From the NCBI RefSeq assembly GCF_025685655.1, contig NZ_JAGSYG010000002.1:496001-560000 (forward strand): 64,000 nucleotides of DNA, read 5' to 3'. Origin of the DNA: Acidicapsa ligni. GTDB lineage: Bacteria; Acidobacteriota; Terriglobia; Terriglobales; Acidobacteriaceae. Every line of letters starts with the position of its first letter. The first letter of the stretch is position 1. The position numbers and the translations under genes are program-made. Positions 4,730 through 34,966 of this stretch are shown here, piece by piece. Under the pieces are notes generated by a model, which saw nothing but the letters and a program-made list of their open reading frames with translations, searched no databases and had not been told where the DNA came from.

Positions 4730-4801
4730 AATGTACCTCGAATCGGAAAGAATGCGACTCTACCGCGGATGGTCCGATAGCTTCGCGAATAGCCCCATCT
4801 G

Positions 4802-4850
4802 CCACAAACAAGAGCCGCTTTTCCGAAGAAAAAGCGGCTCTTGTTTGTGG
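4802..4850 (-). terminator. Long hairpin downstream of clpX
   Basis: A perfect 21-bp inverted repeat (4802-4822 with 4830-4850) surrounds a 7-base loop. The core on the minus strand is AGAGCCGC then T-rich, then AAAAGCGGCTCTT followed by GTTTG. It lies 50 bases after the clpX stop codon and before the next minus-strand gene, which suits transcription termination of the clpPX unit. The U-tract is weak, so it could also act as an mRNA-stabilising 3' end. Confidence 0.75.
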
Positions 4851-26410: not shown

Positions 26411-27823
26411 ATGACAACGGGCAATAAAACAAGCGCGACAATCGACAAACCCTATAAGCTGCTGATCGCGGATGATCAGCCGCAGATTCTCGAGGCATTG
26501 CGGCTTCTGCTCAAGCCTGAGGGCTACCAATTGGAGCTGGTGCGGACGCCGGCACTGCTTCTCGAGGCTCTCTCGCATGAGAGCTTCGATGGGGTTTTGA
26601 TCGATCTGAACTACACGCGGGATACGACCTCTGGACAGGAGGGAATGGATCTCGTCGTCCGCGTCAAGGAGATTGACCCGCAGCTTCCCGTTGTCGTCAT
26701 GACCGCGTGGGGCAACATCGATCTTGCCGTTGAAGCAATGCGCCGGGGTGCTGGCGATTTCATTCAGAAGCCATGGGAAAACGCGCGATTGATCAGTGTG
26801 TTACGCACGCAGATGGAACTGCATCGCAGCCAGAAGCGAACGCAATGGCTTGAAGCGGAGAATCGCATTCTACGCGCGCCCGGTGCTCCTGATTTCATAG
26901 CCACTGCGCCTTCCATGCGCCAGGTGATCGAGACAATGTCTCGCGTAGGCCCCTCAGATGCGAACGTTCTTATCACCGGAGAACACGGCACAGGAAAAGA
27001 AGTCGTCGCACAGATGCTGCATCGGCTCTCCTCGCGATCGTCACGCACACTTGTCGCCGTTAATACTGGAGCGTTGCCGGAAGGGACATTCGAGTCCGAA
27101 CTTTTCGGACACGTAAAAGGCGCATTCACGGATGCGCGAACAGACCGCATCGGGCGTTTTGAATTGGCCAACGGTGGCACACTTTTTCTGGATGAAATCG
27201 CGAACATTCCAATTCGCCAGCAGGCAAAACTTCTTCGCGTGCTTGAGACTGGTGAGCTTGAGCGCGTCGGCTCATCGCGAACACAATCCGTCGATGTCCG
27301 CATCGTTTCAGCGACGAATGCAAACCTGCGACAAGACTGCGCCGAAGGCCGCTTCCGCGAAGATCTTCTCTTCCGGCTTAACACTGTTGAGATAGAGCTT
27401 CCGCCGCTGCGCGAACGTCGTGAAGATATTCCTGCATTGGCCGGGCACTTCCTCGCACGCCATGCTACCCGCTATCGACGCCAGATTCAGGGCCTTGAAC
27501 CGTCAGCACTGCAATTGATGCTGCAATACAACTGGCCTGGCAACGTGCGAGAACTCGATCATACCGTCGAGCGCGCCGTTCTAATGGCTCGCGGAGACCG
27601 CATCGATGCTGTCGATCTCGCTCTGCATCCTCAGCGCAGCAGCTCCAGCAGCACTGCTTCAGGCGGATCGCAGAGTCTCGACGAGATGAGCCTTGAGACC
27701 GTGGAGTCGATCCTCATTCGCAAGGCTCTTGCGCGCGTAGGAGGCAATGTCAGCCAGGCCGCTGATGCTCTCGGCCTCAGCCGCGGAGCGCTCTATCGGC
27801 GGATAGAAAAATATGGTCTCTGA
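26411..27823 (+). CDS. NtrC-family sigma-54 response regulator
   Basis: This transcription activator works with RNA polymerase-sigma-54. From the ATG at 26411 it has 470 residues: a receiver domain with acidic pair Asp21-Asp22 and phospho-acceptor Asp65 in VLIDLNY, conserved Thr98 and Lys120; an AAA+ domain with Walker A GEHGTGKE at 190-197; the sigma-54 contact loop as GAFTDA at 237-242; Walker B LFLDEI; and a C-terminal Fis-type helix-turn-helix (GGNVSQAADALGLSRGALYRR). The contact loop differs from the usual GAFTGA at one position. The sensor kinase gene overlaps its 3' end. The likely target is the efflux locus itself, which begins with a -24/-12 motif. Confidence 0.93.
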   Translation: MTTGNKTSATIDKPYKLLIADDQPQILEALRLLLKPEGYQLELVRTPALLLEALSHESFDGVLIDLNYTRDTTSGQEGMDLVVRVKEIDPQLPVVVMTAWGNIDLAVEAMRRGAGDFIQKPWENARLISVLRTQMELHRSQKRTQWLEAENRILRAPGAPDFIATAPSMRQVIETMSRVGPSDANVLITGEHGTGKEVVAQMLHRLSSRSSRTLVAVNTGALPEGTFESELFGHVKGAFTDARTDRIGRFELANGGTLFLDEIANIPIRQQAKLLRVLETGELERVGSSRTQSVDVRIVSATNANLRQDCAEGRFREDLLFRLNTVEIELPPLRERREDIPALAGHFLARHATRYRRQIQGLEPSALQLMLQYNWPGNVRELDHTVERAVLMARGDRIDAVDLALHPQRSSSSSTASGGSQSLDEMSLETVESILIRKALARVGGNVSQAADALGLSRGALYRRIEKYGL

Positions 27824-29261
27824 GAGGGATGAGCCTGAAGAAGCGTCAGTAAACGAACGGCCGCTCAAACGCCTGCCGCTGGCACGCTCCGGACGCAGAC
27901 TCAGCTTTGAGCGCAGCCTGCGTTTGTGGCTTTATCTGATGGGGCTTCCAACTCTTGCTCTGCTCGCCCTACTGCTTCATAAGATCGATACCGATTTCTC
28001 AGTTCAATGGATTGCGCTTGTATCAACCGCCATCGCCTGGACTTTCGCTGTATCCCTCGTGACAGAACACATCATTCGGCCTCTGCAGACGCTCGCAAAC
28101 GTAGTTGCCGCCTTACGCGAAGACGATTATTCCTTTCGTGCCAGGGGCGCTCGCCGCAATGACGCAATGGGCGATCTCGCGCTTGAAATCAATGCATTGG
28201 CCGGCATGTTACAGGCTCAGCGTATCGGAGCCATGGAGGCTATGGCGCTTGTTGAGCGAGTGATGAAGTCCATGCAATCTCCCGTGTTGGCCTTCGATCC
28301 CGATGGGAGACTTAAGCTTCTCAATGCTGCGGCAGAACGAGCGTTTGATCTTCGCGCGCAAAGTGCGCTGGGCCGCTCCACAAGCAAGCTCAATCTCGAG
28401 CATCTATTGCAAGCCGAAGACAACGACCTTTTATCGCTTGGAAACTCGCAACAGTTGGCGCGCTGGGTAGTCAAGCGCACCGGCTTTCGCCTCCGCGGTG
28501 TTCCGCATTCCCTCTTCGTTCTATCGGATGTCAGTGAAGCATTGCGGGAAGAAGAGCGTCTCGCCTGGGAACGACTCATTCGCGTTCTCGGTCATGAAAT
28601 CAACAACTCGTTAACTCCAATCAAATCGATCGCAGGCAGTCTCCGCAGTCGATTGATCACCCTCGATCCAAGGTCAGAGGAAGAAGATGATTTTGCACGT
28701 GGGCTCGAAGTCATCGAAGATCGCGCGGAATCCCTCAATCGTTTTCTGCAGGCCTATCGTGAACTCATGGGCTTACCCGCCCCCAGGCTTGAACCCATCT
28801 CTCTTGCTGCGCTGATCAAACGTGTAGTGCAGCTTGAGACGCGTCTTTCCGTCAAGATCACTGGTTCTTCCAATGTCGAACTCCTCGCTGACCCGGATCA
28901 ACTTGCACAGGCACTGATCAACCTCATCCGCAACGCAGCGGAAGCGGCGCTAAGTCCGGATGTGGCCGTTGTCCCCGATTCAATAGTAGAGAGAGTTCCG
29001 CAGGTCTCTATCACCTGGGAAACCAGTGGCAACGAAGTGCTCATCTCAATTCTCGACAACGGTCCCGGCCTATCGAATGCAAGCAACCTGTTCGTGCCCT
29101 TCTATACAACCAAGCCTGGCGGTACGGGAATTGGACTCGTTCTCGCGCAGCAGATAGCACTTGCTCACACCGGTTCCGTGCAGCTTACCAACCGTATCGA
29201 CAGCAATGGATGTCGAGCCGACATCCGCTTGCCCCTCGCTGCTTCCCGCCAATCTTCCTGA
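27813..29261 (+). CDS. Membrane sensor histidine kinase, partner of the NtrC-type regulator
   Basis: The 482-residue kinase has two membrane helices at about residues 37-56 and 66-84 with almost no periplasmic loop, a HAMP-like segment (PLQTLANVVAALREDDYSF), a PAS-like region (SPVLAFDPDGRLKLLNAAAE), the dimerisation box with phospho-acceptor His261 in RVLGHEINNSLTPI, and the ATP-binding domain with N-box LINLIRNAAEAA, G1 DNGPGL and G2 GTGIGLVLAQ. The lack of a periplasmic sensor suggests that it senses the membrane or the cytoplasm. Its start overlaps the regulator stop by 11 bases. It resembles the NtrY group of kinases. It ends the efflux operon. Confidence 0.93.
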   Translation: MVSERDEPEEASVNERPLKRLPLARSGRRLSFERSLRLWLYLMGLPTLALLALLLHKIDTDFSVQWIALVSTAIAWTFAVSLVTEHIIRPLQTLANVVAALREDDYSFRARGARRNDAMGDLALEINALAGMLQAQRIGAMEAMALVERVMKSMQSPVLAFDPDGRLKLLNAAAERAFDLRAQSALGRSTSKLNLEHLLQAEDNDLLSLGNSQQLARWVVKRTGFRLRGVPHSLFVLSDVSEALREEERLAWERLIRVLGHEINNSLTPIKSIAGSLRSRLITLDPRSEEEDDFARGLEVIEDRAESLNRFLQAYRELMGLPAPRLEPISLAALIKRVVQLETRLSVKITGSSNVELLADPDQLAQALINLIRNAAEAALSPDVAVVPDSIVERVPQVSITWETSGNEVLISILDNGPGLSNASNLFVPFYTTKPGGTGIGLVLAQQIALAHTGSVQLTNRIDSNGCRADIRLPLAASRQSS

Positions 29262-29267
29262 AAAAAA

Positions 29268-29349
29268 CACTCCTGTGTTATTTCCACACGAAATATGTGG
29301 CATAACCACATGAGATGTGCCATTCTAGTGTGGTCATAACACAGGAGTG
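29268..29349. promoter_or_regulatory. Nested inverted repeats over the padR promoter and RBS
   Basis: A 22-bp arm at 29268-29289 (CACTCCTGTGTTAT onward) is mirrored by 29328-29349 with 20 of 22 matches. Inside lies a second palindrome, ATGTGG-CATAA-CCACAT, at 29295-29311. PadR proteins are known to bind ATGT/ACAT dyads, so the inner element is a likely autoregulatory operator. The right outer arm contains the AGGAG ribosome binding site of padR, so a transcript starting further upstream could hide it in a hairpin. Confidence 0.65.
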
Positions 29350-29352
29350 CGC

Positions 29353-29718
29353 ATGGGCGAACAAAAAGCCGAACCGAAACTGGATATTTTGCAAGGCACG
29401 CTTGATCTCATGGTCCTGCAGACCCTGTCTGTCATGGGCTCACAGCACGGCTACGGCATCGCCCGCCGCATAGAGCAAGTCAGCGATGACACGATCCTGT
29501 TGAACCAGGGAACGATCTATGCAGCGCTCGTTCGCCTTCAGCATCGCGGATGGATCGCGGCCGAATGGGGCATCTCCGAGAACAATCGCAAAGCCAAGTT
29601 CTACTCCATCACCAGGGCTGGAAAGAAGCAGTTACTCAAGGATGCAGCCTACTGGCAGCGTTTGTCCGAAGTGATGGGCCGTGTACTGACAATGGACGAA
29701 AGTGGTGGCACGCAATGA
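29353..29718 (+). CDS. PadR-family transcriptional regulator (ADOP-linked type)
   Basis: This small winged-helix repressor has 121 residues from the ATG at 29353, with AGGAG five bases upstream; a GTG at 29347 is less likely. LDILQGTLDLMVLQTL and HGYGIARRIEQVS begin the winged helix, followed by LNQGTIYAALVRLQHRGWI, the signature PadR recognition segment. A short C-terminal helix would serve dimerisation. The stop overlaps the next start (ATGA), so it is translationally coupled to an ADOP permease. This PadR-permease pairing is characteristic of Acidobacteria. The likely target is the palindromic region in front of its own gene. Confidence 0.95.
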   Translation: MGEQKAEPKLDILQGTLDLMVLQTLSVMGSQHGYGIARRIEQVSDDTILLNQGTIYAALVRLQHRGWIAAEWGISENNRKAKFYSITRAGKKQLLKDAAYWQRLSEVMGRVLTMDESGGTQ

Positions 29719-32387
29719 CACCGCAGCAGCCCAAATCAATCCTGGCGGCGCTGCGTCGAGGTCTGAATCGGCTCTGGTCTTTCTTCCGCAAAGGCCCTCT
29801 CGATGACGATCTCAATGAGGAAATGGCCGCGCACATCGACCTCGCAACCGAAGAGAAAATGCGCAGTGGACTCTCGCGCGTGGAAGCGCGCAGACAAGCA
29901 ATGATCCAGTTTGGAGGCATCATGCAGGCAAAAGAAAATCAACGGGCGACTCGGGGAATTCCAAGCCTCGATATTCTTGTTCAGGATCTTACCTATAGCT
30001 GGCGCACGCTTCGGCGTGATACCTCTTTCACGATGATCGCTGTGATCATTCTTGCCATCGGCATCGGCGCCAACATCTCAGTGTTCAGCGTGGTTAATAC
30101 CATCCTCTTCCGCCCGCTGCCCTTTCGCGATCCGGACCAATTGGTTCGCATGGGACCCATCACTGGCAACAAGGGTGGCATGTCCACCGCGACGTACTCT
30201 AGCGATGCCTACGAAGTCTTCGCCTCTAAAACAAAGACTCTACGGGATGTCATGGGCTACTTTGCTTTCTCTGATCGTGACAATGTGCGCCTCAATCGTG
30301 GCGGCACCCCGCTTCCCGTTTCGATGATCATGGTGACAGGAAACTTCTTCAAAGCGCTCGGAGTTGAGCCCTCGCTGGGACGACTCTTTACGGCTGAGGA
30401 ATCCCAGAAGAATGCACGCCCCGTAACTTTGTTGAGCTATCCATTCTGGCAGCGCCAATTCGGCGCAGATCCCAACATTATTGGTAGAGCTATCAGCTTT
30501 GGCAATACTCCCGTAACAGTTGTTGGCGTGCTTCCAGAGAATTTCGATTTCGGAGCAGTCTTCGAGCCGGGCGCAAAGATAGATCTCTTTACTCCTGTGA
30601 ATATGGATGAGATTCGAGAAGAGGGAAATACGCTCGCTCTCTTTGGTCGCCTGCAGCCGAACGCGACACTCCAGCAAGCTCAGGGAGAGGTGAATCTTCT
30701 CTTTCCCGATTTGCCGGGAAGCCTCAAGCATCCCGAGTGGAAGCCAGGTTACACCGCTGGCGTTCAAACGTTGAAGGACTATGTAAGTGGCAAGTTGCGG
30801 CGTTCTCTAATCGTCGTTTGGATTGCAGTTGGGTTGATTCTCCTGATCGTCTGCGTGAATCTCTCCAATCTTTTATTGGCCCGCGCCGCTACACGTAGAA
30901 AGGAATTCGCTCTGCGCAGTGCACTTGGTGCAGGGCGCGGACGCATCATTCGTCAACTGCTCACCGAAAGTATCGTGCTCTCATTCACCGGAGCGATTCT
31001 CGGCCTCGGCCTTGCATATGTGACCACCTACTATCTCGCACACAAAGGCTCGGTCGCCTTGCCACTGCTCGGCAGCATTCGCGTTGATGGCACTGCTCTC
31101 GTCTGGACGCTGCTGATCACCATGGCAACTGCTCTGGTCTTTGGATTGATACCGGCTTTTAGAACCACGGGTAAGAATCTGCAGGAAGACCTCAAAGATA
31201 CGGGTCAGGGAGTAAGCGAAGGTCGCAGTCACGACTTTCTACGCTCCTTCCTTGTCATCTCTGAAGTTTCTCTGGCCTGTGTCCTTCTCGTAGGCGCCGG
31301 GTTATTGCTGCGCAGCTTCCTTCAGGTGATGGATGTGGATCTTGGATTCAGTCCCAGCCAGGCAGCCGCTATCAAAGTCGACTACAACGACGGCAACAAT
31401 GCCGATAAAAAAGTAGCTATCTTTCAAGAAATGCAGCGTCGTATCGAGGCGCTGCCGGGTGTGGAGTCCGCAGGCATCTCCGATAATCTTCCCCTCGATC
31501 GCAATCGAAGCTGGGATATTTCAGCCAAAGGCGTTCAGTATCCCAGGGGATTACTTCAGGCCACCTTCGTCTATATCGTTTCACCTGGCTATCTACACTC
31601 CATCGGTATGCGCCTCGCGGCCGGTCGTGATTTCACGTGGGCTGATGGGCCCAAGGATGAGAAGGTCGTCATCATCAACCAGACGGTAGCACGTAAGCTG
31701 TGGCCCGGTCAGAATCCGATTGGCCGGATAGCATCTGCTGGCGGAGACGATGCCCGTGTTATTGGTGTCATCGATGATGTACAGACAGATACGATCGAGG
31801 GCGAATCTGGCTGGCAGATGTATATGCCTCTATCGCAGCAGGGCAATGACGGCGCGCAATTAGTCGTCCGCACCAAGCTTCCTCCCGCAGCACTGGCGTC
31901 AAGCGTGATGACGACACTTCGCAGCATGAACCCGGCACAGCCAGCGACCGAGTTCCGCCCACTGCAGCGGCTTGTGGATCGCGCTGTCTCCCCTCGACGG
32001 TTCTTCGTCTTGCTGGTAGCCTTCTTCGCCGTGCTTGGTGTGGTGCTGGCTTCGCTCGGCATCTATGGCGTAATCTCCTATTCCGTGACCCAGAGGACAA
32101 AGGAAATCGGCATTCGGATGGCCCTCGGTGCAACCGCGGAGCGGGTTCAATTCGACGTGATTTCAAGAACGCTGCGCCTTGCTTTTATTGGCATTGTCGT
32201 AGGCACCGTCTTTTCATTCATAACCTCCAGGCTGATTGCGTCCTTGCTCTTCGGCACCCGTCCGACAGACCCGATCACATTCGTCGGCATGGTCGTGCTT
32301 CTGGGTTCCATGGCCCTCTTCGCGGGATATATTCCAGCCCGGCGAGCTTCGCGTATTGAGCCTATGGATGCGTTGCGCCTGAACTGA
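29715..32387 (+). CDS. ADOP-type ABC permease coupled to PadR
   Basis: This 890-residue permease starts at the ATG at 29715, overlapping the padR stop. It has an extra cytoplasmic N-terminal segment absent from the other copies (DDDLNEEMAAHIDLATEEK and SRVEARRQAMIQFGG), which is common in PadR-linked members. Then follow the membrane helix IGIGANISVFSVVNTILF, a periplasmic domain, the FtsX triplet with KEFALRSALGAGRGRIIRQL, the second periplasmic domain and the second triplet (EIGIRMALGATAERVQFDV), ending PARRASRIEPMDALRLN. No ATPase gene is adjacent, so it is an orphan in the classical ADOP sense, unless it borrows one of the ATPases of the upstream locus. Confidence 0.93.
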   Translation: MTPQQPKSILAALRRGLNRLWSFFRKGPLDDDLNEEMAAHIDLATEEKMRSGLSRVEARRQAMIQFGGIMQAKENQRATRGIPSLDILVQDLTYSWRTLRRDTSFTMIAVIILAIGIGANISVFSVVNTILFRPLPFRDPDQLVRMGPITGNKGGMSTATYSSDAYEVFASKTKTLRDVMGYFAFSDRDNVRLNRGGTPLPVSMIMVTGNFFKALGVEPSLGRLFTAEESQKNARPVTLLSYPFWQRQFGADPNIIGRAISFGNTPVTVVGVLPENFDFGAVFEPGAKIDLFTPVNMDEIREEGNTLALFGRLQPNATLQQAQGEVNLLFPDLPGSLKHPEWKPGYTAGVQTLKDYVSGKLRRSLIVVWIAVGLILLIVCVNLSNLLLARAATRRKEFALRSALGAGRGRIIRQLLTESIVLSFTGAILGLGLAYVTTYYLAHKGSVALPLLGSIRVDGTALVWTLLITMATALVFGLIPAFRTTGKNLQEDLKDTGQGVSEGRSHDFLRSFLVISEVSLACVLLVGAGLLLRSFLQVMDVDLGFSPSQAAAIKVDYNDGNNADKKVAIFQEMQRRIEALPGVESAGISDNLPLDRNRSWDISAKGVQYPRGLLQATFVYIVSPGYLHSIGMRLAAGRDFTWADGPKDEKVVIINQTVARKLWPGQNPIGRIASAGGDDARVIGVIDDVQTDTIEGESGWQMYMPLSQQGNDGAQLVVRTKLPPAALASSVMTTLRSMNPAQPATEFRPLQRLVDRAVSPRRFFVLLVAFFAVLGVVLASLGIYGVISYSVTQRTKEIGIRMALGATAERVQFDVISRTLRLAFIGIVVGTVFSFITSRLIASLLFGTRPTDPITFVGMVVLLGSMALFAGYIPARRASRIEPMDALRLN

Positions 32388-32515: not shown

Positions 32516-34966
32516 ATGAGAGTTCTACAACAGGATCTTGCCTACACCTTCCGGCGTCTTTCACGTGCGCCAGGGTTTGTGATCGCGGTCGTTGTCTCGA
32601 TTGGCTTAGGCATTGCCGCGAATGCCACCATCTTTTCCATGGTGAGTCGATTTGTCCTACGCCCTGCTCCCGTCGGAGATCCCTCCACTCTGCTTAATCT
32701 CCACACGTTGCATGATGGCGATCAGTGCTGCAACAACTTCCCCCAGCCCGTCTTTAAAGACCTTCGCGATCAGGCGAAATCCTTCAGCGGAGTAGCAGCC
32801 TACAACGAACTGGTTCCCGCCTCCATCGGTGGCAATGGCGAGCCAGAACGTGTCTGGGGCCAGGCCACATCTGCAAATTTCTTCCGTGTGTTGCAGATCC
32901 CGATGACTGTTGGCCGTGGCTTTCTGAATGAGGAAGAGAATCAGCAAACGATCGTGTTGAGCCATCGTTTGTGGAAGCGTCGTTTCGCTTCAGACCCGAA
33001 TATTGCAGGCAAAGCCATAGTTCTCTCCGGACGACCGTACACTGTCGTCGGCGTAGCCCCCGAGGGCTTTCGCGGAGTTGATCTCATCCTGGATTCCGAG
33101 TTCTGGGTTCCACTTGGCAACGTAACATCTCTGGTCCCAAATCTCACCAACATCGACTCTCGCGACATGCACTGGCTTGCCGTCGTTGCGCGTCTCAAGC
33201 CTGGTGTCACCCAGTCCCAGGCCAGGTCCGAACTTGCTACTCTCGCCAAGCGCCTCGCTGCAACCTATCCCGCCACGGACAAGGGGAATGGCTTCCTCTT
33301 TGAGCAGGCAGGCTCACTTCCGCCCCGGGACAAGTCTACGGTCCTTCTTTTTCTGGGAGCGCTCTCGATCGTCGTATTGCTTGTTCTCTGCATTGCTTGT
33401 GCCAACGTTGCGAACCTGCTGTTGGCCCAGACCGCAGGTCGTCAGCGCGAGATGGCAGTACGGCTCGCCCTGGGAGCAACGCGCGCGCGCATCGTTCGTC
33501 AGATGATGATCGAATCCATCCTGCTCGCGCTCAGCGGGGGAGTACTGGGCGCAGCCCTCTCGCTCATGGCCACGCATGCTCTCTCTACCTTTCGCCTGCC
33601 CGCGCCAGTGCCTCTGGACTTAACGCTGAATGTGGACTGGCGTGTCATGGCTTATACCTTCGCGCTCAGCGTCGGCGCGGGTCTTATCTTTGGCATGATC
33701 CCCGCGTGGGTAGCCTCGCGTCCCAGGCTTGCAAACGCACTCAAAGGCGAAGACGCGCTTGCCCGCCCAGGCCGCAAATGGACATTACGCAACGTCCTTA
33801 TCATTGGCCAGATCGCGATGTGCCTCGTCCTGCTCACCTCTACAGGACTTTTCCTGCGCAGCCTGCAACAGGCCGCTAACATTGATATAGGCTTTCGCTC
33901 CAACGGGATCCTGAGCCTCTCCGTCGATCCTCGTCTTCACAGCTACACGCCGGAACGTACCATACAGTTTTTCACCCTGCTTCGTCAGCGCGTCGCAGCA
34001 CTGCCTGGAGTTGCTTCTGTAGTCGTCACCGACAGCGTTCCATTGAACGGAGGCAATCGCAGCGATGGATTCCATGCGCGTATCAAGCCCAAATCCCTCA
34101 CGGGAGCCGTCAGTGAACCCGACCCAGTCGTAGAAATGTACATGGCTACCCCGGGCTATTTTGAAGCAATGGGAATCCCGCGACTCGCAGGCCGTGATTT
34201 TGCCGAAGAATCTCCCGCAGGTCCCAAGGTTGCGGTTATTAACCAAGTCTTCGCGCAGAAAGTCTTCGGTGCAGAAAATCCCATTGGGCAGGTAGTAATG
34301 GACGGCGATATTCCCTATCAGGTCATCGGCGTCGTGGCCAATATCAAAGCCCGTTCAATAGGTGAAGAAAATCGCGCCATCCTCTTTCGTTCGCTCGATC
34401 AGACCGTTGCGTCTGATCCTTCTTTCACCGGTTACACAATCCTCGTACGCTATCAAGGCAACCCCGAGGCAATCGTATCTTCCGTTCGTGATCAGATTCG
34501 AGCACTCGATCCAGCAATGGCTGTTTACAACATTCAAACCATGCAGGAGCATCTCCGCGATGCGTTCTTCCTGCCGCGTCTCGCCGCAACTTTATTCGGA
34601 ACTTTTGGAGCGATAGGTCTCACACTCGCCGCCGTCGGCTTATATGGAGTGATGAATTATTCCGTGAGTCGCCGCACCCGCGAAATCGGCATTCGTATGG
34701 CTCTGGGCGCGCAGGTTGGAGCAGTGCAGCGCCTCATCGTTCGCCAGGGCATGGTGCTGACATGCATCGCGCTCATCGTCGGATTGCCCGCCGCATTTGC
34801 GCTCGCGAAGCTGTTCACAAGTGTTCTCTATGGCATTCACACAAACGATCTGGCGACCTTTGTTGTCGTTCCAGTCTTTCTCGCAGTAGTGGCGTTCATC
34901 GCGTGCTGGCTCCCTGCACGTCGAGCCTCACGCGTAGATCCGCAGATCGTACTGCGTTACGAATGA
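32516..34966 (+). CDS. ADOP-type ABC permease, stand-alone copy
   Basis: This fifth duplicated FtsX/MacB permease has 816 residues. The ATG at 32516 has AGGGAG seven bases upstream. It lacks the N-terminal extension of the PadR-linked copy and starts directly with QQDLAYTFRRLSRAPGF, then the helix LGIAANATIFSMVSRFVL. Both FtsX triplets are complete, with REMAVRLALGATRARIVRQM and EIGIRMALGAQVGAVQRLI, and it ends PARRASRVDPQIVLRYE. It lies 128 bases after the PadR-linked permease and converges with the LacI regulator, only 16 bases from that stop codon. No ATPase is adjacent. The substrate is unknown. Confidence 0.92.
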   Translation: MRVLQQDLAYTFRRLSRAPGFVIAVVVSIGLGIAANATIFSMVSRFVLRPAPVGDPSTLLNLHTLHDGDQCCNNFPQPVFKDLRDQAKSFSGVAAYNELVPASIGGNGEPERVWGQATSANFFRVLQIPMTVGRGFLNEEENQQTIVLSHRLWKRRFASDPNIAGKAIVLSGRPYTVVGVAPEGFRGVDLILDSEFWVPLGNVTSLVPNLTNIDSRDMHWLAVVARLKPGVTQSQARSELATLAKRLAATYPATDKGNGFLFEQAGSLPPRDKSTVLLFLGALSIVVLLVLCIACANVANLLLAQTAGRQREMAVRLALGATRARIVRQMMIESILLALSGGVLGAALSLMATHALSTFRLPAPVPLDLTLNVDWRVMAYTFALSVGAGLIFGMIPAWVASRPRLANALKGEDALARPGRKWTLRNVLIIGQIAMCLVLLTSTGLFLRSLQQAANIDIGFRSNGILSLSVDPRLHSYTPERTIQFFTLLRQRVAALPGVASVVVTDSVPLNGGNRSDGFHARIKPKSLTGAVSEPDPVVEMYMATPGYFEAMGIPRLAGRDFAEESPAGPKVAVINQVFAQKVFGAENPIGQVVMDGDIPYQVIGVVANIKARSIGEENRAILFRSLDQTVASDPSFTGYTILVRYQGNPEAIVSSVRDQIRALDPAMAVYNIQTMQEHLRDAFFLPRLAATLFGTFGAIGLTLAAVGLYGVMNYSVSRRTREIGIRMALGAQVGAVQRLIVRQGMVLTCIALIVGLPAAFALAKLFTSVLYGIHTNDLATFVVVPVFLAVVAFIACWLPARRASRVDPQIVLRYE

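Follow-up and report, generated by a model that had tools for sequence, protein, structure and literature searches.

What do the nested inverted repeats immediately upstream of a padR gene in Acidicapsa ligni control, and do they act as DNA, as RNA or as both? The element lies in a 64,000-nucleotide stretch of the genome (the window, to which all coordinates refer). A sequence-only reading had proposed that PadR binding to DNA and RNA folding could both control the padR–permease pair, read-through from the upstream kinase gene being blocked at translation. The padR gene (29353–29718, + strand), recognized as an open reading frame and from profile scores, encodes an acidobacterial PadR, with 59.9 bits against PF03551 (cut-off 27 bits) and 135.2 bits against TIGR03433 (cut-off 101.8 bits). 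It is directly followed by the gene for an ADOP-family permease (29715–32387, + strand; TIGR03434, 865.1 bits against a cut-off of 622.3 bits), the start of which overlaps the padR stop codon (ATGA). Directly upstream of padR are the genes for a sigma-54 response regulator and, after it, a co-directional histidine kinase (27813–29261, + strand), the latter being a possible source of read-through. A second ADOP permease gene in the window (32516–34966) has neither a padR gene directly before it nor TGTG-N7-CACA boxes. The source genome holds 22 PadR genes above the TIGR03433 cut-off (L037–L058), the padR of the window included. Several of these paralogs are preceded by distinct inverted arms of their own, which suggests paralog-specific operators.

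Arm alignment and a window-wide repeat scan recovered the nested repeats as they had been described. The arms of the 22-bp outer repeat lie at 29268–29289 and 29328–29349 (+ strand), match at 20 of 22 positions and are separated by 38 nt, in which an inner ATGTGG/CCACAT palindrome occupies 29295–29300 and 29306–29311. The right arm does contain the AGGAG Shine-Dalgarno sequence (29343–29347, + strand), with 5 nt separating it from the ATG start codon of padR (29353). The most fitting reading of these nested repeats is a 15-bp box, TGTG-N7-CACA, present three times, each copy a predicted PadR site on the + strand: S1 (29274–29288, TGTGTTATTTCCACA), S2 (29296–29310, TGTGGCATAACCACA) and S3 (29329–29343, TGTGGTCATAACACA). 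Their centres are 22 and 33 bp apart, and the last base of S3 is shared with the Shine-Dalgarno sequence. The inner palindrome is S2, and the outer repeat is S1 facing S3, together with their flanks. The motif reported for PadR proteins is an inverted ATGT/ACAT with a spacer of 8–10 bp (PMC3506622, PMC5428041). S2 with its flanks reads ATGT-N9-ACAT and so conforms to this motif; S1 and S3 conform only to its TGT/ACA part.

When the window was scanned without gaps for inverted repeats with at least 20 of 22 matches and loops of 3–60, the outer repeat and one simple hairpin near 4801 (in four registers) were returned, and no others. None arose in 40 simulated windows of 64 kb (first-order Markov), which rules out a chance repeat. 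The other hairpin (4801–4850) is near-perfect, being a 21/22 inverted repeat with a short loop, and looks terminator- or attenuator-like. Exact TGTG-N7-CACA occurs three times in the window, always in the padR upstream region. In 100 shuffles of the window the mean was 0.68, and five shuffles gave three or more, so that the count of three loose boxes per 64 kb is only mildly unusual; their clustering within 70 bp is the unusual part. Across the 5.68 Mb genome the strict form TGTGGN5CCACA is found once, at S2, the form being absent from S1 and S3. The loose form is found 45 times, as against 24 for the reversed control, with 42 of the matches outside the padR region. Among the 45 genome matches, a second non-overlapping pair within 100 bp was found nowhere else. 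The surplus of loose matches elsewhere in the genome may belong to other regulators.

Comparison among relatives tied the boxes to the PadR protein. We began with 149 loci, 147 of which matched the PadR query; leaving out L035, where the upstream sequence was too short, and four duplicates gave 142 upstream regions, all belonging to PadR homologues selected by PadR similarity. A box pair was defined as two TGTG-N7-CACA boxes, with at most two mismatches, 22–35 bp apart. All three loci with a PadR identity of at least 80% (window included) carried such a pair, as did 47 of 53 at 70–80%, where six loci were without one, and 16 of 30 at 60–70%; at lower identity the counts were 3 of 27 (50–60%) and 1 of 29 (below 50%). 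Summed, this amounts to 50 of 56 loci at 70% identity or more (window included) and 4 of 56 below 60%, against a rate in shuffles of at most 0.0009 (0.09%) in any identity bin; since the loci share ancestry and PadR similarity was the basis of their selection, the trend partly reflects descent. An ADOP match was present in every one of the 82 PadR loci of at least 2 kb. Inverted repeats as such (arms of 10, loops up to about 41) were enriched over shuffles before TGTGG-type (66 loci) and other-type (52 loci) padR genes alike, and 11 of the 52 other-type genes had outer arms matching at 9 of 10 positions or better with a loop of 22–36, compared with 2.7% of shuffles.

The spacing of the pairs was narrowly distributed. 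Among 70 pairs the distance was 33 bp in 37, 34 in 16, 32 in 9, 23 in 4, 24 in 2, and 30 and 31 in one each. A spacing profile built from 17-mers was set aside, its peaks being broad because palindromes match in many registers. At L062, L064, L078, L081, L090 and L094 the pairs are 23–24 bp apart instead of 33, that is, about one helical turn closer. The members of the pair are referred to below as op1 and op2, which correspond to S2 and S3 of the window. A third box at the position of S1, 22 bp before op1 (at most three mismatches), was found in 2 of 56 loci, namely the window and L002. The latter is the closest relative and is syntenic: 88% of the aligned PadR residues are identical, the kinase encoded upstream is homologous (75%), and an ADOP permease is present (61%). 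Its three boxes have exactly the 22/33 spacing of the window. The 22-bp outer repeat is absent from L002, where the best inverted repeat surrounds the middle box instead, and is perfect at L068, where it encloses both boxes. The sequence-only reading had suggested a search for the same nested repeat before other padR–ADOP pairs: the outer 22-bp repeat comes and goes among relatives. At nine further loci (L066, L069, L070, L071, L074, L077, L082, L084 and L087) the PadR is 73–79% identical over the aligned part and the boxes are the same, and the best ADOP match to either ADOP permease of the window reaches only 34–39%. The pattern looks as if a PadR–operator cassette had been reshuffled among permeases, and loci cut short could add to it.

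The protein side of the comparison showed a matching signature. In the 66 loci that have the pair and a PadR identity of at least 60%, PadR residues 51–57 read N-Q-G-T-I-Y-A, with a conservation of 0.98–1.0 per position. We take this stretch to be the recognition helix, from the winged-helix fold of the family. Of the 52 loci that lack the pair and fall below 60% identity, 47 carry P at position 57 and 48 carry L at position 55, a contrast uncorrected for relatedness between sets that also differ in overall identity.

A consensus scan found no sigma-70 promoter in the padR upstream region. We therefore give promoter elements by position only, from an alignment of those 60 of the 66 loci in which the spacing is 30–35 bp. 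In 48 of the 60 loci a hexamer with A at its second and T at its sixth position has its first base 8 bp upstream of op2, as compared with 0–16 loci at each of the other 20 offsets. In the window this place is taken by the putative −10-like hexamer CATTCT (29321–29326, + strand), 17 bp after a candidate −35 slot, TGGCAT (29298–29303, + strand), which is a poor match. At a spacing of 33 bp, the slot 17 bp before the hexamer falls inside the upstream box, and it reads TTGACA in 10 of the 60 loci. Given a −10-like hexamer at a fixed place before the downstream box, transcription probably starts inside S3, at about 29332–29335. This comparison of upstream regions shows the boxes and how they are spaced, the constant position of the hexamer and the link to PadR identity. 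The flanks of the boxes carry information as well. Over the 66 loci, TCC before op1 is conserved at 1.2, 1.5 and 1.4 bits and GGAG after op2 at 1.6, 1.8, 1.8 and 1.3 bits, whereas GGA after op1 is conserved less (0.6, 0.5 and 0.6 bits). Since TCC at op1 plays no part in ribosome binding, we read TCC/GGA as part of the presumptive PadR half-site, which at op2 would double as the Shine-Dalgarno sequence. An RNA stem would also explain the conserved TCC/GGAG flank pattern.

The arrangement resembles characterized PadR systems. LmrR, a PadR-like protein of Lactococcus lactis with operators at lmrR and lmrCD, likewise autoregulates through an inverted ATGT/ACAT box, has its operator in the promoter region, places multiple dimers on its own promoter and controls a transport gene (PMC5428041, PMC4534193). 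The present locus differs in having three boxes at 22/33 spacing with mostly TGTGG half-sites, the last of which runs into the Shine-Dalgarno sequence, and in having an ADOP permease in place of the ABC drug exporter. Similarly, the promoter of cdPadR1 in Clostridioides difficile contains two inverted repeats that the protein itself binds, but the motif is TACT(N11-12)AGTA, with about 200 predicted sites in the genome (PMC5050560), compared with one strict and 45 loose boxes here. Both proteins of the window exceed the curated cut-offs of their families and in this respect match the pairing of TIGR03433 PadR with TIGR03434 ADOP. Among the papers that it covered, our literature search found no operator for the TIGR03433/TIGR03434 family; it also found no PadR-family sites overlapping a ribosome binding site.

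Several other explanations of the element were weighed. It might act in intrinsic termination of the kinase transcript or of an antisense RNA. An A-run (29261–29267) to the left of the stem means that a minus-strand RNA would read as a stem followed by U's, and in L003, too, the first box is preceded by an A-rich run. However, the right arm is not followed by a T-run on the + strand, which rules out a sense terminator; no + strand match to an intrinsic terminator was found in 29150–29450, where the sole terminator-like match is the inner hairpin on the − strand, and L002 lacks an A-run of this length at that place. We regard termination as very improbable. Still harder to credit is binding of the boxes by another regulator, for instance the sigma-54 response regulator whose gene precedes that of the kinase. 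These two genes do lie directly upstream, but the boxes follow PadR identity and accompany PadR in loci where no kinase match was found, and a sigma-54 activator normally acts with a −24/−12 promoter. A more substantial rival is action as RNA, in which the outer arms of a read-through transcript from the kinase gene would pair into a stem of 20 pairs and hide AGGAG; padR would then be translated well only from its own promoter. Indeed, the 104-nt stretch 29262–29365 folds at −46.3 kcal/mol (z −6.9). Read-through stretches of the 66 loci, taken from 8 nt before op1 and so leaving out S1 in the window, have a mean z of −2.99 (window included), with 70% under −2, and a mean pairing of the Shine-Dalgarno sequence of 0.81, versus 0.41 in promoter-derived RNA. 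L002 (z −4.2, Shine-Dalgarno pairing 0.75), L067 (z −9.1) and L068 (z −10.0), the last with its perfect outer repeat, all fold well. By contrast, promoter-derived RNA of the window, from 29333, folds no better than shuffles (z 0.73) and leaves AGGAG mostly open. Read-through may therefore be blocked as proposed, given the folds of the window and L002 and the perfect repeat of L068. The hairpin needs read-through RNA, but only 4 of the 82 loci that are at least 2 kb long, the window among them, gave a match to this kinase, most loci holding about 1.5 kb of upstream sequence. No Rfam family scored above its gathering threshold in 29100–29500, two sub-threshold matches reaching 17.2 bits (threshold 60) and 16.5 bits (threshold 105), and a known RNA family was accordingly set aside.

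Swap and flip tests on 56 of the 66 loci bear on whether op1 and op2 are matched to each other. Native op1/op2 folds averaged −26.38, compared with −24.97 when op1 was swapped between loci, and none of 60 swaps was as stable; the same held in a thinned set of 29 loci (−26.63 native, −24.56 swapped, 0 of 60). The box centres were complementary at 114 positions in the 56 loci, against 85.8 after permutation. Both results favour RNA action, and a slightly weaker fold after flipping the op2 core (−25.63 vs −26.38) points the same way. Flipping the op1 core, on the other hand, did not weaken the fold (−26.99), and the swap effect was smaller within close PadR groups (−27.11 native vs −26.25, with 1 of 60 swaps as stable). 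Within the closest groups the centre complementarity was 91 against 81.1 (p 0.02). A single position accounts for about half of the overall excess of complementarity in the centres, and the flanks contribute nothing to it, which also speaks against RNA action. It is conceivable that one set of bases acts at once as PadR half-site, as Shine-Dalgarno sequence and as part of an RNA stem, promoter RNA being open and read-through RNA self-silencing. Selection for such a two-layer lock would explain why op1 and op2 match better within than between loci, but a lineage-specific PadR preference together with palindromy is the simpler cause of the swap effect and of the centre complementarity, and we consider the lock rather unlikely. 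Hairpins arise from palindromic operators alone, and the outer repeat is missing from L002, so that action of the element as RNA in its own right seems quite improbable. The sequence-only reading had itself named a transcription start downstream of the left arm as one part of what would refute its proposal; the start given by position does lie there, and it is against RNA folding that this counts. The case for RNA folding as a second control is weak. Overall, RNA control of padR is possible, and DNA control by PadR, judged from the sequence comparisons, is well supported.

Taken together, the element is very probably the operator of a PadR autorepressor, with three boxes laid over the padR–ADOP promoter. 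The predicted operator agrees with the PadR-controlled promoter first proposed: the box pair follows PadR identity, S2 has the ATGT/ACAT form, and the boxes span the putative −35 slot, the probable start and the edge of the Shine-Dalgarno sequence. In the mechanism that we infer, which extends to PadR binding, repression, the start site and a releasing signal, PadR dimers would bind the three TGTG-N7-CACA boxes. S2 would lie over the −35 slot and S3 over the start site, with its last base in AGGAG, and S1, some two helical turns further upstream, would act as an accessory box. Occupation of S2 and S3 would exclude RNA polymerase, and padR and the overlapping ADOP permease gene would stay off until some signal releases PadR. 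The repeats look nested because palindromic boxes succeed one another and because the GGA that flanks a half-site doubles as ribosome-binding sequence.

Autorepression is a known and ordinary kind of control; the layout here is unusually tidy and conserved. What is of interest is the conserved, promoter-bracketing arrangement, and the half-site running into the Shine-Dalgarno sequence. Palindromic operators beside a ribosome site give strong RNA hairpins, which are not necessarily riboregulators. With a box that follows PadR identity and a matching set of residues in the protein, the DNA code of the family would become open to testing, and each PadR could be assigned to its target.
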